64,000 nucleotides of DNA, taken from Rhodoferax sp. (lineage in GTDB: Bacteria; Pseudomonadota; Gammaproteobacteria; Burkholderiales; Burkholderiaceae_C). The DNA lies in NCBI GenBank assembly GCA_019449595.1, contig JAGRPL010000004.1:124001-188000 (forward strand), read 5' to 3'. The notes under the pieces were generated by a model. That model searched no databases, had not been told where the DNA came from, and worked only from the letters and a program-made list of their open reading frames with translations. Below are positions 1 through 11,212 of this stretch, one piece after another (position 1 is the stretch's first letter; each line of letters opens with the position of its first letter). The translations under genes and the position numbers were made by a program.

Positions 1-879
1 GTGGAATGGAAAAAGGTGGAGAAGACCGTCCGCCAGGAGCATGAGCAAAAGGGCTTTGACGGGCGTTTCGGCCCTGGCTTGCCGCGTGTGTCCGACGGCT
101 CCATGCTTTTCCTGATGCATCTGCTCTCCAAGATGCGTCCGTCTACCGATGGTGGCAGCCGCTTTGGCATTGTTCTGAACGGCTCCCCACTGTATACCGG
201 TGGTGCAGGCAGCGGCGAGAGTGAAATCCGCCGCTATGTATTGGAAAACGACTTGGTCGAGGCTATCATTGGCCTGCCGACCGACATGTTTTACAACACG
301 GGAATCGCCACCTACGTCTGGATTCTTTCCAACAAGAAGCCTGCGGCCCGTAAAGGCAAGGTTCAGCTCATTGATGCTAGTGCCTACTGGCAGAGGATGC
401 GGAAGAGCCTGGGTAGCAAGCGCAAGGAAATGAGCGACGAGCACATTTCCATAGTTACCAGAATGTTTGGCGACTTCGTAGATGCAGAGGAAGACGGCAA
501 GCCCATCTCCCGCATCTTCAACAATGCCGACTTCGGCTATACCACCATCACGGTGGAGCGTCCCTTGCGCGATGAAGCAGGCAACACGGTGCTCGGCGCC
601 AAGGGCAAGCAGAAAGGCAAACCCCAGCCAGACTCAGCGTTACGCGACACTGAAAACGTGCCGCTGGGTGAAAACATCCAGGACTACTTCGCGCGGGAGG
701 TGTTGCCGCACGCGCCTGACGCCTGGATTGACGAAGAAAAGAGCAAGGTCGGCTACGAGATTCCCTTTAACCGACACTTCTACGTCTTCGAGCCGCCGCG
801 CAGCCTGCACGTTATCGATGAGGAGTTGAAGACTGTCACGGCCAGCATCATGAAGATGCTGGAGGAGCTAGCGGAATGA
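1..879 (+). CDS. hsdM: Type I restriction-modification methyltransferase subunit HsdM, 3' part (5' end outside window)
   Basis: This is the C-terminal 292 residues of the modification subunit of a type I R-M enzyme, which methylates adenine using S-adenosylmethionine in complex with HsdS. The frame is open at the first base. The opening residues VEWKKVEK match what normally follows the catalytic NPPF motif in HsdM, so the catalytic core lies just upstream and the GTG at position 1 is an internal valine codon, not a start. Visible family marks are GRFGPGLP, the stretch ending in GFG-like [12 protein letters not shown], and [16 protein letters not shown], all typical of the N6 adenine methylase fold. 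Its stop overlaps the hsdS start by 4 bases (ATGA), as in translationally coupled hsdMSR operons. Identification is firm; the missing N-terminus prevents checking the catalytic residues. Confidence 0.93.
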
Positions 880-2171
880 GTTTTCCGGAGTATGGGAACT
901 ACAGGGAAAGCGGCATTCCATGGGTCGGTGCCTTGCCTGCACATTGGGGCGTTTTGCCGCTGGTGGGAGTGGCAAGAGAACGCACTGAGTCGAACGTGGG
1001 CATGCAAGAAAACAACCTCCTGTCGCTAAGCTATGGCCGAATCGTCCGAAAGGACATTGACTCAAACAATGGCCTGCTTCCTGAGTCCTTTGAGACCTAT
1101 CAAATAGTTCAGAGGGGAGATATCGTCCTGCGTCTGACGGACCTTCAGAACGACAAGCGCAGCCTCCGCAGCGCGCAGGTGCAGGAACGAGGCATCATCA
1201 CCTCCGCCTACCTAGCCCTTGAGCCAAAGGGCGCATCGTCGGCGTTTTTGGCTTACCTGTTGAGGGCCTACGACCTCGGCAAAGTCTTCTACTCGATGGG
1301 CGGCGGGCTGCGGCAGTCGATGAAGTTCGCTGACCTAAAGCGTATGCCTATTGCCGTACCGTCAGAGCCAGAGCAGACCGCCATCACAGCATTCCTAGAC
1401 CGCGAGACCGAAAAAATCGACGCCCTGGTTGCCGAGCAGGAAAAGCTTGTCACCCTACTCGCCGAAAAGCGTCAGGCCACCATTTGCCATGCAGTCACTA
1501 AGGGTCTGAAACCGAACGCACCGATGAAAGACTCTGGTGTGGAGTGGCTTGGGCAAGTGCCGGGACATTGGTCAATCAAACCTTTCTTTTGTGTCGCCCC
1601 AGAATGCTATGAACCCAACGATGGCATGCGTGAGGACAACCTTCTTTCCTTGAGCTATGGACGTATTGTTCGAAAGAATATCGAGTCCAATGAAGGTCTT
1701 CTGCCCGAGTCATTCGAGACTTATCAAATTATTCGACCAAACGAAATTGTCTTCAGGCTCACCGACCTCCAGAACGACAAACGCAGCCTTCGCACGGCTC
1801 TTGTAGAGGAGCAGGGCATCATCACATCGGCCTACACTGCTGTGAAGCCCACTGGCATTCATGCTCGGTACTTAAACTACCTACTTCGTGCTTACGACGT
1901 CACGAAGGTTTTCTATTCGATGGGCGGTGGACTACGACAGTCCATGAAATTCGCCGACATTAAGCGCCTACCGACACTTATTCCGCCAAGCACCGAACAA
2001 ACCAATATCGTCACCTTTCTGGATTTAGAGACTGCCAAACTCGACGCCCTCAGAGCCGAATCCGAACGCGCCATCACGTTACTTAAGGAGCGCCGCAGCG
2101 CCCTCATCGCCGCCGCCGTGACGGGTCAAATCGACGTGTGCGGCCTTGTCCCCCAACCGAAGGCCGCATGA
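876..2171 (+). CDS. hsdS: Type I restriction enzyme specificity subunit HsdS with two near-identical target-recognition domains
   Basis: HsdS directs the HsdM/HsdR complex to a bipartite DNA target, one target-recognition domain (TRD) reading each half. The 431-residue protein has the usual layout: TRD1, a helical spacer rich in E/K/L (about 171-210), TRD2, and a second helical spacer (about 380-415). Unusually, residues 42-170 and 250-378 align without gaps, and I count about 93 identities in 129 positions, including [10 protein letters not shown] and [13 protein letters not shown] in both halves. At DNA level the halves are clearly diverged, so this is not a very recent tandem copy. The gene overlaps hsdM (ATGA) and its stop overlaps the hsdR start. 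Two equal TRDs predict a palindromic bipartite recognition sequence. Confidence 0.95.
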
Positions 2172-5100
2172 TGTCCGCTCTGCACAAGGAAATCCACTTC
2201 GAGTCGGCCATTTGCACCCACCTTGGCCAGCATGGCTGGCTCTATGCCGAAAGTGATGCCGAACACTACGACCGTGCCAATGGCCTGTTCATGCCCGACC
2301 TGCTGGCTTGGGTGGAATCCACCCAGCCCGATACATGGCAGCGCCTGACCAAAACCCATGGCCCGGCCTTGGCTGAACGCCTGGCAGAGCGTGTGCGTAA
2401 AAGCCTCAACGAACGCGGCACCCTAGATGTTTTGCGCCGTGGTGTCGAAATGCTCGGGCTCAAAGAGCCCTTGAGTCTGGCGCAGTTCAAACCCGCGTTG
2501 GCCATCAACCCGGTCACGTTGCAGCATTACGCCGCCAACCGGCTGCGGGTGGTGCGCCAGGTGCGGCATTCACCGAACAACCCCAAAGACGCACTGGACC
2601 TGGTGTTGTTTCTGAATGGCATCGCAGTCGCCACGGCAGAACTCAAATCAGACTTCACACAAAGCGTGCAGGACGCGGTAGACCAATACCGCTTTGACCG
2701 CTTGCCGCAACCCAAAGGCGGCGTGCTGGAGCCTCTTCTTGGCTTCCCTGGTGGTGCCTTGGTGCATTTCGCGGTCAGCCAGAGCGAGGTCATGATGACC
2801 ACCAAGCTGGCAGGTCCGGCTACCTACTTCCTGCCATTCAACAAGGGCAACCAAGGGGCCGCAGGCAACGCGCCCAACCCCGAAGGCTTCGCCACGTCGT
2901 ACCTCTGGGAAGAGGTCTGGGCACCCGACAGTTGGCTCGACATCCTGCACCGCTATCTCATTGGCAAGCGGGATGACAAGAAGCAGCTCAAAAGCGTTGT
3001 GTTCCCTAGGTATCACCAGCTCGACGCTACCCGCAAGCTGGTGGCTGACGTTCTGGCACAGGGCGCTGGTCAGCGTTACCTCATCCAGCACTCGGCAGGC
3101 TCGGGCAAAACCAACTCCATTGCCTGGACTGCCCACTTCCTGGCCGACCTGCACAACGCCGAGCATCAGAAGCTGTTTGACAGCGTCCTGGTCGTCAGCG
3201 ACCGCAATGTGCTGGACGCCCAGCTCAAGGAAGCCATTTTTGACTTCGAGCGCACCCATGGTGTGGTGGAAAGCATCACCAACGACCACGGCAGCAAAAG
3301 CGCCCAGCTCAGCCAGGCGCTCAAGGATGGGAAGAAAATCATCATCTGCACCATCCAGACATTTCCCTTCGCCTTACAGGCCGTGCAAGAGCTGGCGGCC
3401 ACCGAAGGTAAGCGCTTTGCTGTGATTGCCGACGAGGCCCACAGCTCGCAAAGCGGTGAGGCAGCGGCCAAGCTCAAGCAATTGCTGTCGGTCGAAGAAT
3501 GGGCTGCGCTGCAAGACGGTGGCGAAGTGGACACGGAACTTCTGCTGGCCGCCCAAATGGCCGCACGCAGTGCCGACAGTGAGGGGGCCAAAAGCCTGAC
3601 GTACATCGCGTTCACCGCTACCCCCAAGCAGAAGACCCTGGAATTGTTTGGCCGTCCCGGCCCTGATGGTCTGCCCCTGCCGTTTCACGTCTATTCGATG
3701 CGCCAGGCCATCGAAGAGGGCTTTATTCTGGACGTGCTCAAGAACTACACCAGCTACAAGTTGGCGTTCAAGCTCGCCCACGACGGCAAGGAGTATGACG
3801 AGACGCAGGTCGAGCGCAGCACGGCCATGAAGGGAATCATGGGCTGGGTGCGTCTGCACCCGTACAACATTGCCCAGAAGGTGCAAGTGGTCGTGGAGCA
3901 CTTCCGCGAGAACGTGCAACCCCTGCTTTCGGGCAAGGCCAAAGCCATGGTCGTGGTCGGTAGCCGCAAAGAGGCCGTGCGCTGGCAAAAGGCCATTCGT
4001 GGCTACATCGAGCGCCAGGGCTACAAGCTGGGCGTGATGGTCGCGTTCTCCGGTGAAGTCGATGACCCGGAGAGCTACCCAGCGCCGGTTAGCGAAACCA
4101 GCAAAGACCTGAACCCCGGCCTCAAAGGCCGAGACATCCGTGATGCCTTTGCGGAACCGGAATACCACCTGTTGCTGGTGGCGAACAAATTCCAAACTGG
4201 CTTTGACCAGCCCTTGCTGTGCGGCATGTATATCGACAAACTGCTGGGTGGCATCCAAGCCGTTCAGACCCTGTCGCGCCTGAACCGTGCCCACCCCGGC
4301 AAGGACACTACATACATCCTCGACTTCGTCAACGAACCCGCCGACATCCTGAAGGCGTTCAAGACCTATTACGAAACCGCTGAGCTGGAAGCGAGTACCG
4401 ACCCGCACCTGGTCTATGACCTGCGGGCAAAGCTCGATGCCAGCGGCCATTACGATGATTTCGAAGTAGAGCGCGTAGCCAAGGTGGACGTAGACCCCAA
4501 TGGCACGCAAAAGCAGTTGGATGCGGCCATCGCTCCGGTAGCCGACCGCCTGCTCAAACGCTACAAAGCCGCCAAGCAGGAAAAGACCCAAGCCGACGCA
4601 CTAGGGGACTCCAAGGCCATCCAGGCTGCCAAAGACATCCTGGATGCGCTGGTGCTGTTTAAGAACGACATGGGCAGTTTTGTGCGCCTGTATTCGTTTC
4701 TATCGCAAATTTTCGACTACGGCAACACCGACATCGAAAAGCGTTTTCTGTTCTTCAAGCGGCTCATCCCGTTGCTGGAGTTCGGTCGTGAACGCGATAC
4801 CGTGGACTTGTCCAAGGTGGTGTTGACCCACCACACCCTCAAGAACCATGGCAAGCAGCCGCTGAGCCTGAATGCCGATGGCACCTACAAACTGCCACCC
4901 ATGGATGCGGTGGGCACCGGCTCGGTACAAGAAAAGCAGCATGCCTACCTCAAGGAAATCATCCAGAAGGTGAATGGCTTGTTCGAAGGCGAACTCAGCG
5001 ATGATGACCAACTGGTCTACGTCAACGGCGTTCTGAAAGGCAAGCTGCTGGAAAACGAAACCCTGGTCAGTCAGGCCGCCAGCAACAGCAAGGAGCAGTT

Positions 5101-5299
5101 CGCCAACTCGCCCGACCTCAAAGAAGCCGTGATGCACGCCATCATGGATGCCCTGGAAGCGCATACCACCATGAGCACGCAGGCCTTGGGGTCCGAACGC
5201 GTGCGCGACGGACTCAAAGATATTCTGCTGGGACCGGCGCAGTTGTACGAGGCCCTGCGGGCACGGTCTGGTGCTGACGGTAGTAGTGCCCAGGTGTAG
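2168..5299 (+). CDS. hsdR: Type I restriction enzyme endonuclease/translocase subunit HsdR
   Basis: HsdR is the motor and nuclease of the type I enzyme: it pumps DNA using ATP and cuts it far from the target. The 1043-residue product shows an N-terminal PD-(D/E)xK nuclease core (DLVLFLNGI followed by ATAELKSDF). The SF2 helicase motifs follow: Walker A HSAGSGKTNS, DEAH box ADEAHSSQSG, motif III AFTATPKQKT, and late motifs NKFQTGFDQPLL and QTLSRLNRAHPG. The C-terminal helical region docks on the methylase. I chose the ATG at 2168 because it overlaps the hsdS stop as ATGA; an in-frame ATG 30 bases earlier would lie well inside hsdS. All key motifs are intact, so the nuclease looks functional. 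Confidence 0.95.
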   Translation: MMSALHKEIHFESAICTHLGQHGWLYAESDAEHYDRANGLFMPDLLAWVESTQPDTWQRLTKTHGPALAERLAERVRKSLNERGTLDVLRRGVEMLGLKEPLSLAQFKPALAINPVTLQHYAANRLRVVRQVRHSPNNPKDALDLVLFLNGIAVATAELKSDFTQSVQDAVDQYRFDRLPQPKGGVLEPLLGFPGGALVHFAVSQSEVMMTTKLAGPATYFLPFNKGNQGAAGNAPNPEGFATSYLWEEVWAPDSWLDILHRYLIGKRDDKKQLKSVVFPRYHQLDATRKLVADVLAQGAGQRYLIQHSAGSGKTNSIAWTAHFLADLHNAEHQKLFDSVLVVSDRNVLDAQLKEAIFDFERTHGVVESITNDHGSKSAQLSQALKDGKKIIICTIQTFPFALQAVQELAATEGKRFAVIADEAHSSQSGEAAAKLKQLLSVEEWAALQDGGEVDTELLLAAQMAARSADSEGAKSLTYIAFTATPKQKTLELFGRPGPDGLPLPFHVYSMRQAIEEGFILDVLKNYTSYKLAFKLAHDGKEYDETQVERSTAMKGIMGWVRLHPYNIAQKVQVVVEHFRENVQPLLSGKAKAMVVVGSRKEAVRWQKAIRGYIERQGYKLGVMVAFSGEVDDPESYPAPVSETSKDLNPGLKGRDIRDAFAEPEYHLLLVANKFQTGFDQPLLCGMYIDKLLGGIQAVQTLSRLNRAHPGKDTTYILDFVNEPADILKAFKTYYETAELEASTDPHLVYDLRAKLDASGHYDDFEVERVAKVDVDPNGTQKQLDAAIAPVADRLLKRYKAAKQEKTQADALGDSKAIQAAKDILDALVLFKNDMGSFVRLYSFLSQIFDYGNTDIEKRFLFFKRLIPLLEFGRERDTVDLSKVVLTHHTLKNHGKQPLSLNADGTYKLPPMDAVGTGSVQEKQHAYLKEIIQKVNGLFEGELSDDDQLVYVNGVLKGKLLENETLVSQAASNSKEQFANSPDLKEAVMHAIMDALEAHTTMSTQALGSERVRDGLKDILLGPAQLYEALRARSGADGSSAQV

Positions 5300-5578: not shown

Positions 5579-5956
5579 TCAGTCTTCACCCGGCAGCATG
5601 ATGGTGATGACCGGCTCCCAAGCGTCACCAGGCCCCACCATCGCCTGCAACGCGGCAAGCGTTGGACGTCCGCCATGGGCAGGAACGCGGAGTACCGACA
5701 CGCTGACACGGTCGCCTCCGGCCCCCTTGATGGCGAGCTTGGTCATCCACAGGACATCCCACAACCTGCCGGTCTCGCTCTGTCCGGCACCCCGTCTGTT
5801 CTCTGGCCAGGCCACGCAGTCGGCCCATGCCGCCGCTGTCAGCGCCACGGCATACCGAAAACCGGCCTCCTTCGCCATGGCTGACACATCCACCAGCACC
5901 CCATCGTCAATGGCTTGGGCTCGGCTGTAGCTGTAAATCACTTCTGCATTTCTCAT
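5579..5956 (-). CDS. DUF6573-like small protein (125 aa)
   Basis: The product begins MRNAEVIYSYSRAQAIDDG and continues VLVDVSAMAKEAGFRYAVALTAAAWADCVAW; this opening is typical of the DUF6573 family found on plasmids and integrative elements. No enzymatic function is known to me. The start at 5956 is supported by a strong ribosome binding site, AAGGAG, five bases upstream, and by a 4-base ATGA overlap with the stop of the 62-residue gene before it. The frame can be extended 67 residues further upstream, but that extension overlaps two other frames and has unlike composition. The protein lies in the element cassette and probably belongs to its conserved backbone rather than to the R-M system. 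Confidence 0.7.
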   Translation of the reverse strand: MRNAEVIYSYSRAQAIDDGVLVDVSAMAKEAGFRYAVALTAAAWADCVAWPENRRGAGQSETGRLWDVLWMTKLAIKGAGGDRVSVSVLRVPAHGGRPTLAALQAMVGPGDAWEPVITIMLPGED

Positions 5957-6141
5957 TTTTTCTCCTTGACGATTTGGACAGGCACCATGGCCGTGCCTCG
6001 ATGGGACATGCGTAGCACGTACCGCTGCCCCTGAAACGTGCCTTTGAAATCCCGATGGGTTTTGGCCCATTCTTCGGGCGTCATGCGCACCATTTCCGGT
6101 GCCGCTTGTGGGGTGGTCAGCTCTTGCATGTGGTCTTTCAC
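5953..6141 (-). CDS. Small hypothetical protein (62 aa), coupled to DUF6573 gene
   Basis: This short product (key segment MTPEEWAKTHRDFKGT, then QRYVLRMSHRGTAMVPVQIV) has a compact alternating pattern suggesting a small beta-rich fold. I recognise it only as the kind of short conserved protein seen beside DUF6573 genes on mobile elements. Its stop overlaps the DUF6573 start as ATGA, and the DUF6573 ribosome binding site lies in its last codons, so the two are probably translated together. The start is either GTG 6141, which itself overlaps an upstream TGA as GTGA, or ATG 6129. No catalytic motif is visible. Confidence 0.6.
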   Translation of the reverse strand: MKDHMQELTTPQAAPEMVRMTPEEWAKTHRDFKGTFQGQRYVLRMSHRGTAMVPVQIVKEKK

Positions 6142-6251
6142 GTTTGCCGGATTTCAAGATTCAGAGCCTTGTTTTTTGGCTCCTTGGCTTTTGGCGATGT
6201 CCGGGGCATCGCCTTTGCCGCCGTCTTTTCGGAGTCCGTCGCCTGCGACAC
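6138..6251 (-). CDS. Possible very small ORF (37 aa) upstream of the cassette
   Basis: An open frame on the minus strand ends with a TGA that overlaps the GTG start of the 62-residue gene (GTGA). The last 37 codons after an in-frame GTG are rich in Lys, Ala and Ser (SEKTAAKAMPRTSPKAK). The coupled overlap is the only real support. The frame extends upstream to 6440, but that part looks like chance translation and I see no ribosome binding site. It could be a leader peptide, the end of a decayed gene, or nothing. Confidence 0.25.
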   Translation of the reverse strand: MSQATDSEKTAAKAMPRTSPKAKEPKNKALNLEIRQT

Positions 6252-6485
6252 AGGGAGCCGAAACGGCGTAACGTGAAAGCGCTGGAATCGAAGCCGCAGC
6301 CCGCACAGGGACCGGATGCTGAGCCACCCGAAGGGCGGGGCGCTTGGTCGTTGGATGGCTTCGGCTACGGTCGCAAATGAGGTGACAACGCCGACAAGTC
6401 GGCGGCAATGGCATCCGTGCGTCGGATGCCTGGCGGACACAGACCGCCGGAAGTTCGGGAGCCGTGCAAGACACGGGGCCAGGCG

Positions 6486-6940
6486 TTCAGCCGCAGCCGT
6501 CAGACCGCTCTACCGCCCAAGCGGTTGAGAACGGCTGACCTAGAGGGTGCCGCAAGAAAATAGCCGACAGGGCGCTAGCCCGGCGTCGTGCGATAGGAAG
6601 GCCCAAGCCCTTCCGGTTTCGCAGTGGGGGACTGAAAGTCCCGGCGCACCGAGTCCGACAGGCTCGGGCAACCTGGCCGAGTGAGCACAGCGAACCACAG
6701 CAAGTGCAGCGTCCAGCGCAACGGGTCGGGCGGGTTGCCCGAGCCTGGAATGACGCGCAAAGCGTCATGGAAGGCTGGGGCGCCCTGTCCCATATTGCCC
6801 ATGCTTTTCGTCCAGAAAAGCAAGCGGTGCCGGGCGTCCAGCCCGACTGAGCACCTGGCGGTGGGCTGCGTTAGCCGTACTAACGGCTGACGCTCCCCCC
6901 TGACGCCCCCGGGCGCAGCCGGGAGGGTCAGTTTGATTTT
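6486..6940 (+). ncRNA. Candidate structured non-coding RNA or origin-type region, about 450 bp of nested inverted repeats
   Basis: No credible gene lies between 6252 and 6991. From about 6486 the sequence is a succession of perfect or near-perfect inverted repeats. They include CAGCCGT/ACGGCTG enclosing ACCGCT/AGCGGT (about 6494-6537); TGCGA/TCGCA enclosing GGAAGG/CCTTCC (about 6589-6622); GGGACT/AGTCCC with a 3-base loop (about 6628-6642); 15-base arms at 6659-6673 and 6733-6747 that could close a multibranched domain; ATGACGC/GCGTCAT at 6750-6768; GGTGC enclosing CGGGC/GCCCG at about 6826-6855; and an imperfect 26 bp palindrome at 6868-6893. A terminator-like hairpin with T-rich tail ends the block at 6940. 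This fits a folded RNA read on the plus strand, or a cis-acting replication or transfer origin for the element. The family is not identified. Confidence 0.5.
6900..6940 (+). terminator. Terminator-like hairpin at the end of the structured block
   Basis: CTGAC (6900-6904) pairs with GTCAG (6927-6931), enclosing a GC stem (CCCCCGG with CCGGG plus GG, one bulged A) and a 6-base loop. The 3' side runs into TTTGATTTT (6932-6940). It would stop a plus-strand transcript about 50 bases before the next gene. Confidence 0.45.
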
Positions 6941-6991
6941 GTAGCTACACGTCAAAACAACAGTCCCGTAATGCGGGAAAACGGAGAAGAC

Positions 6992-7801
6992 GTGAGCGAA
7001 AAAATGGGAGTTAAGGATGGCCGCGAAGCGGGCATGGAAGAGCAGACCGGCATCATGCGTCTGCTGCATCGCTTTGGATGGCTCAGGACGAGAGACCTGG
7101 CGAGCCTCAGCAGTGGCGCGGCGTCGAAGACACCGCCGAAAGGAGGGCCAATGCTGCAGCCGCCAATTGCCAGTCCGGTGGACATTCGACGCATTCAGCG
7201 CCACCTGTCCAAGCTCCGAGAGCGTCGGATGGTGCTGATGACGCAAGCCCCGAACGGAAGCTGGATTTACGCCTTATCGGAAAAAGGTGCCCGTGCCTTG
7301 CAAGGGTTTGGTCTCCCAGCTTCCACCGGTAAAGACATGCTGCGCCGATACCATGCAGCGTTTTTCCTGCATCGCAATGTTGCGAATGAGGTCGCCATCA
7401 GTGCCATGTTGCAAGGTTTCAGAGTATCGACGGAGCGAGAAATCGCGCAAGGTCGTTGGCTTGGCGGTGCCGACGGTGTGATGGGTAAAAAACCAGATGT
7501 TGTGCTGAAGTCCGGAAATGATGTCTGGTTCGTGGAAGTGGAGCGTAGTCACCGCAACCGCAAAGACTATGACCACCTCATGCGTTTTCTATTGCAAATC
7601 TGGCGCGATACGCGCCTGGGTGAAGCAGTAGACATCGATGGCACCCACCGCTTGAGACAGGTCATTTTTATATGCACAACTGGATTTGAAAAAAAACTGT
7701 CCCAAGACCTCTTTTCAAAGGGCTGGAAGTTGGATGAACTGCGTTCCCGGGTCCGTTTTGAGACATCGCTATACAGTTTCAAGGCCATTGCGTTTTATTG
7801 A
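6992..7801 (+). CDS. Replication-relaxation-like winged-helix protein of the element
   Basis: The 269-residue product has an N-terminal winged helix-turn-helix (about residues 15-100), with LHRFGWLRTRDLASL, IQRHLSKLRERRMV and the wing-like WIYALSEKGARAL. This pattern is typical of replication-relaxation (Replic_Relax) proteins of plasmids and integrative elements. The C-terminal half contains PDVVL followed by VWFVEVERS, spaced like the D...ExE/ExK core of a PD-(D/E)xK fold, so nuclease ancestry is possible but unproven. GTG 6992 is chosen because GGAG lies six bases before it; ATG 6971 upstream lacks a site. It is transcribed away from the structured block, suggesting that it acts on that DNA in replication or mobilization. 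Confidence 0.6.
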   Translation: MSEKMGVKDGREAGMEEQTGIMRLLHRFGWLRTRDLASLSSGAASKTPPKGGPMLQPPIASPVDIRRIQRHLSKLRERRMVLMTQAPNGSWIYALSEKGARALQGFGLPASTGKDMLRRYHAAFFLHRNVANEVAISAMLQGFRVSTEREIAQGRWLGGADGVMGKKPDVVLKSGNDVWFVEVERSHRNRKDYDHLMRFLLQIWRDTRLGEAVDIDGTHRLRQVIFICTTGFEKKLSQDLFSKGWKLDELRSRVRFETSLYSFKAIAFY

Positions 7802-8076: not shown

Positions 8077-9345
8077 TCAGAGCCCTGCAAAGCCCCCAGG
8101 CACATAAACGTTGCAGTAATACTGCTGGCCCCGCCCGGTGCGGCGGCGCTCGCAGACCAGCTGCTTATGGGATTCGCGTAGGCGTTTCCAGAATTGGGTG
8201 GAGCCCAAGGTTTGCAAGGCATTGTCACTGCACCAGTTGCGGTAATGCTCGAACACCAGAGCTTTGGTCACGGTGCATTCACCCTGCACGGTGACGCACG
8301 CATCGTCGAGCCACGCCATGACCGAGTTCGTGTCCATCTTGGCCTCCTGCAGGGCATGGGCCATGGCCGCTGGCACTTCGGATTCGAAGCCGCCCCGTGC
8401 TAAAAGCCGCAACAGTCCTTCCAGCGCCCACAACAAAACACCAGACAGTTCGGTCTCGATGATGCGTCTCGCCAGTTGCGGGTCCCGCTCTTTGGGTGGA
8501 ACCGTACCGCCAAATGGGACGATATCCCAGCGCCGCCAGAAGCCTACGCTATGGTCTGCGACAGCGGGCAGGTGGTTGCCACAAACAACCCACTTGCCAC
8601 GGATATGAATGCTTAGTGGGTCGCGGTGCTTTCGGTCGATTTGAACCCGCTCCCCGGCAATCATAGACTTGATGAGCTGTTCATTGATGCGGCTGCGGGG
8701 TACCTCGTCGGCATAAATGAGGTTGGCTCCGACCAGGACACTGAGTTTGAATCCTTCCAGCGCATCGAGATTCACGGCGGCAATGTTGCTGTGCAGGGCT
8801 TGCACAATATTTGCAAGAACCCCTTTGCCATTAGCGCCCTCGCCGAGCCAAAGCTGCGCGGTTTGAAAGCGTGCATCTGCCAAAAACGTGTAGCCAATGT
8901 ACTCCTGCACCCGAGCACGAACCGAGTCATCCGGCAGTGCACGCAGCAAAAAACGCTCAAAACTTGGGGCGGTAGCCTTCGCGTCAAATGCGCAGCGCAG
9001 GACGTGCCGGATACCCAACGTCGGGTCTGCAGGACGCAATTCCAACCGGGTGCCGTTGATATGCACGTAGCCATTGCTGACCGGCACGACGACCTCGTCG
9101 GTCGGGTCGGCAAGCTTGGGTAGGAAAAGCACTGCAGCGCGAACGGCCTGCTTGGCGTTAGCAGCGCTGGCGAAATCCGCCCTATGCGCAACCAGCCAGT
9201 GGTACGCGGACACCTCGGCTTCGTCGTCTTCTATAACTTGCCAATGGGTTCCTGTCCATTGGTAAAGCAATTTCGACTCACTGGCCATGTTTCCACACGC
9301 CAGCAATGCGGACGCGTAGTTGTGGGGTTCGAAAGATTTAGCCAT
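8077..9345 (-). CDS. Phage/plasmid primase-type SF3 helicase (D5/P4 family)
   Basis: This 422-residue protein is a superfamily 3 helicase of the kind annotated as phage/plasmid primase, P4 family, C-terminal domain; such proteins unwind the replication origin of satellites and plasmids. The D5_N-type helical region (about 40-150) is followed by Walker A GEGANGKG (168-175), Walker B NLIYADE (208-214), motif C with VVCGN (253-257) and an arginine finger in SVGFWRRWDIVPF (266-278). The C-terminal winged-helix region ends at about 415. There is no N-terminal primase domain, so it is shorter than P4 alpha. ATG 9345 is preferred over 9351 since GGGAGG lies six bases upstream. It follows the integrase on the same strand and ends at a strong terminator. 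Confidence 0.88.
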   Translation of the reverse strand: MAKSFEPHNYASALLACGNMASESKLLYQWTGTHWQVIEDDEAEVSAYHWLVAHRADFASAANAKQAVRAAVLFLPKLADPTDEVVVPVSNGYVHINGTRLELRPADPTLGIRHVLRCAFDAKATAPSFERFLLRALPDDSVRARVQEYIGYTFLADARFQTAQLWLGEGANGKGVLANIVQALHSNIAAVNLDALEGFKLSVLVGANLIYADEVPRSRINEQLIKSMIAGERVQIDRKHRDPLSIHIRGKWVVCGNHLPAVADHSVGFWRRWDIVPFGGTVPPKERDPQLARRIIETELSGVLLWALEGLLRLLARGGFESEVPAAMAHALQEAKMDTNSVMAWLDDACVTVQGECTVTKALVFEHYRNWCSDNALQTLGSTQFWKRLRESHKQLVCERRRTGRGQQYYCNVYVPGGFAGL

Positions 9346-9618
9346 GAGCATCCTCCCGAACCGAAAACTGGTGGTTCTGCAAAGATACGCACAGCTGAAA
9401 AACGCGACCGGAGACCGCCTGCATCATGCGATGCGGGAAATAAGAATCCCTGTTGAAGGGTATGAACATAAAAAACACCTCAGAGTCCGCAGATTTGGCA
9501 CGAAGGTCATGGTGGACTCGATGAGACGCAGGTGCCGCAAGCAACACGCTTGCGTCACCTATAAGGAAAAAGTTTTATTTTTCAGCGTGTCGCATCAATG
9601 CTTTGACAGCTGGATGCT
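9346..9618. other. Intergenic region between integrase and helicase genes
   Basis: This is about 270 bp of relatively AT-rich DNA that should carry the promoter of the helicase gene. A 69-codon minus-strand frame (9338-9547) runs into the helicase start but has no recognisable motif or ribosome binding site, so I do not call it. No strong inverted repeat was found. Confidence 0.4.
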
Positions 9619-11052
9619 TTAGGCGAACACCTGCAATGGCGTCTGTTGAACTGAGTGGCCAACTTGGGCGCCACCCTGTTTAAGGTGAATAGTTATTTCC
9701 GACGCTTCAATCAAATCAGTGTCGAACGCGGTTGCCTCTGTCAGCTCCATGACACGCGATAGGCGACTGGTAAGAGTAAAGACCTGGGCAAGGCGCTGCA
9801 TTTCAGCAACGGAATACCCAGCGGTAGTTTTCAAGTTTTTGTGCCCCACTGCCGCAGCGACCGCACGTTCGGATTCGCTGGCATTCGCCATGTTCAAAAA
9901 CGCCGTGTCCCCCGTAATATTGAACAGGTCAAGATTAGACAAACAGTTCTTGTTGCGATTGATGAAAGAACGCCGAAAATCTTTCAGAAGCAGGTCTTCC
10001 AAGCCCATTGCGGTGCAGGCGTCGTCAAATGCTTTGCATACGTCGTCAGCACTGCCCAGGTTTCCGAATAGTGGGCTATCCCCTGTGGCCTCAACAATTC
10101 GCTCGACAAAAATCTGTGCAGCCGATTGGGACAAAGGCACATATCGTGGCTGCTTGGTTTTGTGCTCGGTCTTGTGTTTCAACAAGGTGAGGCGACCACC
10201 AACGATTTTTCCATTGGATTCGTAAAATTCAATATCCGAGCCCTTTGCATTTCGGATTTCGCTGAGACGACAGCCTGTTTCATCGATGACCTTTAGATAA
10301 TCTGCGAAATTTTCAGGAAGAGTCGTGCAACTGAGGAGCTTGGCATACTCACTATCGCTGGCGAGCCGCTGGCGCTTGTTTCCATGTGCTACGGGCAATG
10401 TGAATGCGAAGGCATCCAATTTCATGTCGGGCACGCGAAAAGGCGTGTCTTCTGAAATTTTCGTCCCGGCATAGCGCAAAAGGCGGGTGAGTGCGGTCAG
10501 TCGTAAACGGACTGTGTTGTCACCCAACGGCTTTGTTTTGCCTGCCTGGTTCAACGCATCACTATTTGAACGTGGCTGTCGGTCAAATTTCCAATCGGTT
10601 TTCAGCTGCGCAATGAGCTGGGCCCCACGCCGACCATGAAAATCTTTGAGAGTTTTGTCGGTCAGCAACTTCCCGATAAGGGCATAGTCATTGAGACGTT
10701 GGCCGTGGTTATCTGGATTTTCCTGGACATATGCATTCGCCCAATAGCTCATTGGTCGGTCAAGGTCCTGTAGAACCTCGCGCTCTTTGCGACGGGCTTT
10801 TGCGGGTTGCAACTTGCCTGCGATTATTTCCGTTAATTTTTTTTCTTTGAACTGAACTGCTGATTTCTTGACGTCGAAAGTCTTTGACGTATAGAAAATT
10901 CCTTGGTACCAGACCGCTGCTTGGTACTTTTCCTTACCTGTGCTTGTCAGCACTTTTTTGACGTATGTGTCCTTGCTCACTTTGTACTCCACAAAGTGCA
11001 GTACATCCACGTTGTTTATTCCGTTTGGTCGATTTGACCAAACGGTCACCAA
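9619..11052 (-). CDS. int: Tyrosine recombinase (integrase) of the element
   Basis: The protein integrates and excises the element by site-specific recombination at the adjacent tRNA-Thr. Counting from the TTG at 11052 (477 residues), the N-terminus has an arm-binding-like part, a core-binding helical domain (about 90-200) and a catalytic domain. The catalytic set is R262 in GCRLSEIR, a lysine in the beta-hairpin (LLKHKTEHK, about 292-294), KDFRR with K357 and R360, H404 in VGHKNLKTTAGYS, and nucleophile Y413. Position 357 is normally His (HxxR) and is Lys here. The start is uncertain: TTG 11052, GTG 11049 or GTG 11010. With GTG 11010 a perfect 10-base-arm palindrome falls just upstream of the gene instead of inside it, which I find attractive. 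Confidence 0.92.
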   Translation of the reverse strand: MVTVWSNRPNGINNVDVLHFVEYKVSKDTYVKKVLTSTGKEKYQAAVWYQGIFYTSKTFDVKKSAVQFKEKKLTEIIAGKLQPAKARRKEREVLQDLDRPMSYWANAYVQENPDNHGQRLNDYALIGKLLTDKTLKDFHGRRGAQLIAQLKTDWKFDRQPRSNSDALNQAGKTKPLGDNTVRLRLTALTRLLRYAGTKISEDTPFRVPDMKLDAFAFTLPVAHGNKRQRLASDSEYAKLLSCTTLPENFADYLKVIDETGCRLSEIRNAKGSDIEFYESNGKIVGGRLTLLKHKTEHKTKQPRYVPLSQSAAQIFVERIVEATGDSPLFGNLGSADDVCKAFDDACTAMGLEDLLLKDFRRSFINRNKNCLSNLDLFNITGDTAFLNMANASESERAVAAAVGHKNLKTTAGYSVAEMQRLAQVFTLTSRLSRVMELTEATAFDTDLIEASEITIHLKQGGAQVGHSVQQTPLQVFA

Positions 11053-11103: not shown

Positions 11104-11132
11104 GCGTAGGAGGATGTCTGCTTCGAGCAGGA

Positions 11133-11182
11133 ACCGCCTTGTAAGCGGTAGGTCATCAGTTCGAATCCGATAATCGGCACCA
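11133..11182 (+). repeat. att site: 3' half of tRNA-Thr(UGU) at the element/chromosome junction
   Basis: The segment reads as the 3' part of a tRNA: anticodon stem ACCGC/GCGGT around loop CTTGTAA (anticodon TGT at 11140-11142), variable loop AGGTC, T arm ATCAG-TTCGAAT-CCGAT, acceptor strand AATCGGC, discriminator A and encoded CCA (11180-11182), then eight T residues. No matching 5' acceptor strand (GCCGATT) or D arm exists upstream; the sequence there belongs to the element. This is the expected remnant when a tyrosine recombinase uses a tRNA 3' end as attachment site. A full tRNA-Thr with the same 3' half should lie at the other end of the element, left of this window. Confidence 0.85.
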
Positions 11183-11212
11183 TTTTTTTTCGCGGTCAGT
11201 CTTGCTGCGATT

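Follow-up and report, generated by a model that had tools for sequence, protein, structure and literature searches.

The locus considered here, in a mobile element of a Rhodoferax sp. genome (assembly GCA_019449595.1, contig JAGRPL010000004.1), raises the question of what is encoded by several hundred base pairs of nested inverted repeats lying directly upstream of a Replic_Relax gene: a structured RNA, an origin of replication or transfer, a leader of the neighbouring gene, or nothing in particular. The DNA analysed, termed the window, is the whole stretch of 64,000 nucleotides at contig positions 124,001 to 188,000, and coordinates given below refer to it unless stated otherwise. The repeats, placed by the earlier note at 6486-6940, are real and belong to something larger, namely an aligned core block on the plus strand (6444-6954), which is accompanied by a second block further upstream. 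The best explanation, advanced here tentatively, is that the ~500-nt core block gives rise to a structured noncoding RNA, which binds a probable MOBC-type relaxase and helps to move the mobile element.

The mobile element is delimited by two copies of a 55-bp repeat that covers the 3' part of a tRNA-Thr (TGT) gene. The right attachment repeat is located at 11132-11186 (plus strand), and an identical copy lies outside the window at C13:122551-122605, the two copies being 12,581 bp apart. Together with a tyrosine integrase gene (Phage_integrase; 9619-11052, minus strand), these repeats at a tRNA gene mark an integrative element of 12.6 kb inserted in tRNA-Thr. Between them are found the type I restriction-modification genes (1-5299, plus strand), comprising hsdM (N6_Mtase; starting to the left of the window and ending at 879), hsdS (876-2171), and hsdR (2138-5299), followed by a divergent DUF6573 gene (5579-5956, minus strand), two structured blocks, the Replic_Relax (PF13814) gene (7004-7801, plus strand, its start at 7004 judged from homologs), a P4-family primase/helicase gene (TIGR01613, DUF5906; 8077-9351, minus strand), and the integrase gene. 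A small minus-strand ORF in another frame, situated just upstream of DUF6573 (~5960-6130), reads MQELTTPQAAPEMVRMTPEEWAKTHRDFKG..., and a conserved motif, CCGGATTTCAAGATTCAGAGCC, occurs at 6147-6168 on the DUF6573 side of the second block.

The core block, aligned in 20 sequences, is predicted to pair within 6458-6946, and all of its features described here are on the plus strand. A long closing helix (6659-6747, arms 6659-6679/6727-6747) consists of 20 pairs, 15 of which have changed on both sides, and 96.5% of its cells are paired; the 15-base arms reported previously are present here, inside a 22-nt, 91% complementary pair (6659-6680/6726-6747). The helix encloses a GC-GTCCA-GC hairpin (6709-6717), and a GGC-GTTCA-GCC hairpin is located at 6482-6492. 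Further downstream, a junction (6796-6867) bears two GUCCA hairpins (6802-6822 and 6831-6845), the first of which is the small-loop hairpin of the earlier note, with the loop GTCCA, while overlapping palindromes, answering to the near-palindrome of that note, are present as well. The last element is a terminal hairpin (6898-6933) of 12 pairs, of which 11 have changed on both sides, with 77.5% of the cells paired. Across the block, the loops of the recurrent hairpins remain constant as GUCCA or GUUCA and their stems change; more hairpins, with CCCA loops, were recognized by eye.

With a GC content of about 0.71, chance stems are common, and the block might accordingly be regarded as ordinary GC-rich palindromes devoid of function. 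The fold itself goes well beyond that expectation: 6458-6946 folded alone as RNA reaches -261.7 kcal/mol, whereas 100 dinucleotide shuffles average -214.9 (sd 6.4) and never fold as well (z -7.29), bearing out the earlier view that high GC alone would not give such order. Moreover, the fold is kept by compensatory changes. The core alignment (A4) consists of the window and 19 loci, each upstream of a Replic_Relax relative, and its structure comprises 139 pairs in 25 helices. Both sides have changed in 90 of the 139 pairs, 85.0% of the cells pair, and the covariation score is 0.386. The shuffles gave 59.6 double-change pairs, 70.7% paired cells, and a score of 0.151, with none of 500 reaching the observed values, although these shuffles ignore relatedness; partners slid along the alignment gave 38-45% paired cells and scores of at most 0.099, in a comparison where the structure, derived from the same rows, favours true over slid partners. 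The covariation that the earlier note proposed to look for is thus present, and its suggestion of a large folded RNA belonging to no named class gains support from this covariation and from conservation beside the same gene elsewhere. The homologous blocks sought by BLASTN were likewise found, as collinear pieces upstream of the gene in many relatives.

A similar architecture to that of the 3' domain analysis was obtained from 19 sequences by MAFFT and RNAalifold; the 3' domain analysis, performed with the same programs, yielded 39 of 50 pairs changed on both sides. An alignment including distant loci and fitted to the structure showed 88.3% paired cells versus 60.1% after shuffling, and its 13 double-change pairs were equalled in 22 of 500 shuffles. 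Before counting, copies from genomes already represented had been removed (L003, L044, L191, and L207, represented by L024; L004, L011, and L203 by L027; L007 and L206 by L036; L043 and L208 by L025; L013 and L205 by L005), as had sequences from different genomes that are nearly identical to a retained one (L037 to L032; L006, L012, and L204 to L005, with L012 kept in the 27-source count given below). L021, having too little upstream DNA, and L041, a partial match, were also left out. Since covariation, fold energy, the density of GUCCA hairpins, the covariance-model matches, and the upstream block all exceed their controls, an origin of the block in functionless palindromes can hardly be credited.

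It had also been stated that the region holds no ORF. This does not stand literally, as frame-open ORFs on the minus strand cross the block (e.g., 6487-6768 and 6575-7246); its substance survives, because merely 48 of the 393 gap runs, counted in aligned rows taken pairwise against the window, are multiples of three, which makes conserved coding unlikely.

The second structured block (block A; 6214-6404, plus strand) is composed of 63 pairs, 38 of which have changed on both sides among 11 sequences. In total, 76.9% of its cells are paired, compared with 67.8% in shuffled and 33-44% in slid controls, and both arms of its closing helix change together. Block A and the core may be separate molecules, because they are parted by ~0.8-1.5 kb of other DNA in L023, L024, and L029. 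In these intervening segments (L023 3960-5480, L024 4680-5500, L029 4660-5490), several TGACGnCGTCA palindromes were noticed by eye, together with what appears to be a small gene on the minus strand; L023 additionally shows a gene resembling an insertion-sequence transposase.

How tightly the fold and the gene travel together was followed by DNA, protein, and covariance-model searches. A DNA search of 399 genomes of the family recovered, besides the own genome, pieces upstream of relatives of the gene in three others (G440, G344, and G465), and only the own genome was recovered among 103 genomes of the genus. Short DNA matches in five further family genomes (L014-L019) were discarded, as they received no covariance-model support at E <= 0.1 (L019 0.22, L017 0.3). 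A protein profile of 27 sequences detected 20 loci in the genome collection, in genera including Pseudogulbenkiania, Paraburkholderia, Acidovorax, Comamonas, Hydrogenophaga, Leptothrix, Massilia, Trinickia, Castellaniella, Roseateles, Curvibacter, and Limnobacter; the viral contigs contributed a single full relative (L040) and a partial match (L041). The gene is rare in the samples, occurring in eight of 399 family genomes and seven of 399 order genomes.

The covariance model R1, with 72 positions, was built on the junction at 6796-6867. At E <= 0.001, it recovered 26 of the 27 sources, 342 kb in total, with one place per locus, on the same strand as the gene and just upstream of it. All 23 close relatives were recovered, of which 19 belong to the training set and four (L035, L038, L194, and L012, the last a near-copy of L005) do not, along with three of the four distant sources in this set. 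Among seven distant loci, whose proteins share ~28-33% identity, three were found at E <= 0.001 and four missed this threshold, one of them (L198) reaching 0.0075. Two or three GUCCA hairpins each are present in the remaining loci, L196, L197, and L199. When R1 alone was applied to 274 genomes, four were returned: the own genome; G229, the Comamonas already used for training; G1144, with a place newly found by the model alone and immediately followed by the gene; and G945, whose hit (L195) falls inside a gene and was rejected as a false positive. The hairpins are concentrated in a comparable manner: eight relatives that did not serve for training have 15 GUCCA/GUUCA hairpins in 7.2 kb of upstream DNA, against six in 210 kb elsewhere, a difference of ~70-fold.

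The pairing of fold and gene marks a clade and not all of PF13814. The PF13814 loci drawn from a phylum sample (L210-L216) contain no R1 place at E <= 0.1, GUCCA hairpins are absent from L209-L211 and L213-L216, and L209, whose protein match is marginal, lacks both. One locus of this group (L212/L226) represents a further PF13814 island of the own genome (G000:C13:1195286-1195705), with a single GUCCA hairpin ~560 bp upstream of the ORF and a nearby ORF that looks integrase-like by eye. A pattern scan of viral sequences gave at least 120 stretches; among those listed, 12 passed the filter for a second loop motif, none with CTATAC nearby. In 19 viral stretches, the sole encoder of a protein relative was L175, on the same contig as L040.

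Across the loci, the folded block and the gene stay constant, whereas the recombinase, the replication protein, and the defence genes change. Among the selected neighbours in the fetched neighbourhoods, the recombinase is of the tyrosine or the serine type, and the defence genes range from type I, II, IIG, and III restriction-modification to DISARM DrmA/DrmB and a retron-type reverse transcriptase; the last, at L026:2311-4083 near the block, was assigned as RT-Protease_XI by PADLOC (518 bits). The replication proteins, in the eight loci where one was recognized, comprise a P4-type primase (window, L020, and L029), a PF03090 replicase (L025 and L194), and an AAA_25 ATPase (L022, L031, and L040). 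The SF3-type helicase/primase is therefore not a constant companion, and the proposal that the block would recur beside the same helicase in other genomes gave way to a different constant neighbour, the Replic_Relax gene. DUF6573 was also dismissed as a constant partner, its relatives being present in just 13 of 31 sources, two of the 13 from the same genome. tRNA genes were detected in eight of 18 loci scanned (L022 Lys, L023 Ser, L024 Phe, L026 Met, L031 Thr, L037 Pro, L194 Ala, and L196 Pro), in L024 and L026 as two copies of the same tRNA, hinting that the elements of the relatives use varied tRNA targets.

The protein encoded downstream of the block is a probable MOBC-type relaxase with a predicted architecture of a winged helix and a PD-(D/E)XK-like domain. 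PF13814 is placed in the MobC relaxase superfamily in Table 1 of PMC5357655, and PMC9299015 and PMC12857230 describe a relationship between MOBC relaxases and PD-(D/E)XK enzymes, with which the predicted fold agrees; against this, Replic_Relax is paired with MOBT calls in PMC11104534. The window protein scores 27.9 bits against the PF13814 cut-off of 25.3, and of nine relatives, L025 passes (25.8), four score 15.5-20.0, and four have no match; the PF13814 genome search also missed G229. The candidate resembles the MOBC relaxases CloDF13 MobC and pAD1 TraX in the PF13814 label (PMC5357655), in a predicted PD-(D/E)XK-like fold, and in an adjoining noncoding region (PMC12857230), a comparison qualified by the weak PF13814 scores in most relatives tested and by the lack of a profile match in the CloDF13 frames: the best E was 0.42 among six-frame stretches of NC_002119, a record whose table does not annotate MobC. 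No relative of the protein was found among sequences of solved structures.

If the gene encodes a relaxase, the block might be an oriT or oriV that works single-stranded, the plus strand folding as single-stranded DNA whose hairpins are recognized by the relaxase candidate or by a replication protein. This is the strongest rival, albeit an unlikely one. It accords with the filing of PF13814 as a relaxase family (PMC5357655) and with the position of oriT upstream of the relaxase gene in three atypical systems (PMC9299015), and varying stems with kept complementarity would fit folded single-stranded DNA as well, whereas ordinary recognition of double-stranded DNA leaves the complementary stem changes unexplained. 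In pAD1, by comparison, TraX binds five direct repeats in oriT (PMC12857230), unlike the block, where the stems vary and the fold is constant. An oriV serving one initiator is difficult to reconcile with a replication protein that changes between loci while the block stays.

The size of the structure also weighs against a single-stranded origin. Known origins of transfer typically contain a few repeats, and the 139 and 63 predicted pairs over ~700 nt lie far above that number.

Which strand folds bears on the same rival. The minus strand of the core folds nearly as well as the plus strand (-235.5 versus -247.1, ~5% weaker), in line with a DNA origin, and for block A the minus fold is slightly the stronger; the raw G-U count over all pairs gave no decision between the strands. 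In core helices common to the plus and minus folds, 38 G-U pairs stand against 14 A-C, and RNase P RNA, taken as a control from 26 of 29 loci in 26 genomes of the same family (three shortened by a contig end were dropped), gave 31 against nine. The wobble share of 4.0% in the core is close to the 3.2% of RNase P RNA, and this likeness, together with a bias towards the same strand where helices are shared, would speak against single-stranded DNA, in a test that counts related sequences as independent and with G-T being tolerated in DNA too. Over the union of both folds, the counts are 62 versus 28 for the core and 68 versus 77 for the control, and the power of the test is limited because the control shows no bias there. 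Block A has 17 G-U versus four A-C pairs in shared helices and 25 versus 14 in the union. Alpha-tmRNA was unusable as a further control, with one of 41 above its cut-off. Taken together, the counts suggest that folding takes place on the plus strand, on which the downstream gene is also encoded, and that its wobble resembles that of RNA.

An RNA transcribed on this strand might be a long 5' leader acting in cis on how the downstream gene is transcribed or translated, and the winged-helix protein might bind back to it. The arrangement suits such a role: every R1 place is directly upstream on the same strand, and the last hairpin ends 37-70 nt ahead of the start codon in all 20 aligned loci. The block is very large for a leader, and no conserved terminator was seen. 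The terminal hairpin was rightly recognized in the earlier note, but its T-rich tail is not conserved: among the 20 aligned rows, judged by eye, the window alone has it, and the hairpin is missing from the list produced by a terminator scan. Behind this hairpin, a conserved CTATAC follows, with the window version CTACAC at 6945-6950 (plus strand), and it precedes the start codon by 33-40 nt at 16 of the 20 loci, by 25 and 27 nt at two, and by 59 nt in the window, one locus lacking the motif. CTATAC is possibly a -10 promoter element and could be the promoter of the downstream gene itself, which would speak against a leader. No promoter-like site was found in a search of 5900-7100, a result that weighs against the transcribed RNA preferred here. 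On balance, a cis-acting leader is rated rather unlikely and ranks next after the single-stranded origin.

Comparison with known RNAs supports a class outside Rfam. No family of Rfam 15 (4227 families) matches the block at the gathering score, only three weak, unrelated families appear there at E <= 5, and eight relatives yielded tRNAs only at the gathering score. A phage or plasmid RNA was rejected, as the phage and plasmid collections gave no DNA or protein match, and the core matched none of 20,395 E. coli records. Among the papers listed in searches of the open-licence literature of PubMed Central, which omits most subscription-journal papers, none linked an RNA to PF13814. In size class, in its many helices, and as a candidate bacterial noncoding RNA, the block resembles GOLLD, ROOL, and OLE (PMC12286853).

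The block differs from these three RNAs in lacking an Rfam match and in having a relaxase candidate as its constant neighbour. In HEARO/omega-RNA, too, a large structured RNA accompanies a nuclease gene on mobile elements, and the block could be imagined as a similar guide RNA that has lost its nuclease or now leads the protein with the PD-(D/E)XK-like fold to DNA. The pairing of a large fold with a gene of nuclease fold on mobile elements would agree with this proposal, whose first version the earlier note had raised as an example. It found no backing: neither the block nor, apart from tRNAs, the eight relatives match HEARO or another Rfam family at the gathering score, no IscB/TnpB family match occurs among the selected neighbour proteins searched, and the fold predicted for the nuclease-like protein is of the PD-(D/E)XK-like type. 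A guide RNA is consequently judged highly improbable.

The closest analogue is the sgm-sRNA of Salmonella Genomic Island 1 (SGI1), likened to the block by gene order and not by sequence. According to PMC9299015, SGI1 is an integrative mobilizable element with a noncoding RNA gene located between an atypical relaxase gene and oriT, and experiments established that SGI1 needs this self-encoded RNA for mobilization; a role of RNA in the conjugation complex was considered conceivable by its authors. The two cases differ in that the presumed SGI1 relaxase is of the tyrosine-recombinase type and the protein here is predicted to be PD-(D/E)XK-like, that the functional core of sgm-sRNA occupies ~0.2-0.3 kb of a 650-700-base transcript, and that its fold is predicted, with no covariation mentioned in the passages describing it (PMC9299015).

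The mobilization RNA proposed at the outset is preferred because the fold tracks the Replic_Relax gene and not the genes for replication or integration, because hairpin stems change while the loops stay, as expected of single-strand folds being read, and because the RNA essential for SGI1 transfer sets a precedent (PMC9299015). Transcribed on the strand of the relaxase candidate, the block would yield a structured noncoding RNA that would act as RNA rather than as single-stranded DNA. This RNA is predicted to bind the encoded Replic_Relax-related protein, which presumably nicks DNA, with the repeated GUCCA loops possibly serving as docking sites for the protein, and the ribonucleoprotein may then act in mobilization by analogy with sgm-sRNA. 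A bolder form, speculative and less probable still, envisages RNA as a subunit of the relaxosome: a relaxase of the PD-(D/E)XK (MOBC-like) type would be active exclusively in a ribonucleoprotein complex with a non-Rfam RNA of 0.5-0.75 kb, whose GUCCA loops would dock several relaxase copies or position the nick, in tRNA-targeting elements shuttling anti-phage defence among Burkholderiales and their neighbours.

R1 and the GUCCA hairpins provide a marker for mobile elements near type I, II, IIG, and III restriction-modification, DISARM, and retron-type reverse transcriptase genes. Even if the block proved to be an origin, a fold of such size held by covariation would be unusual. If the preferred reading is true, a family of DNA-transfer enzymes has an RNA partner, and the question raised by the SGI1 RNA, of whether RNA forms part of conjugation complexes, would become directly testable.
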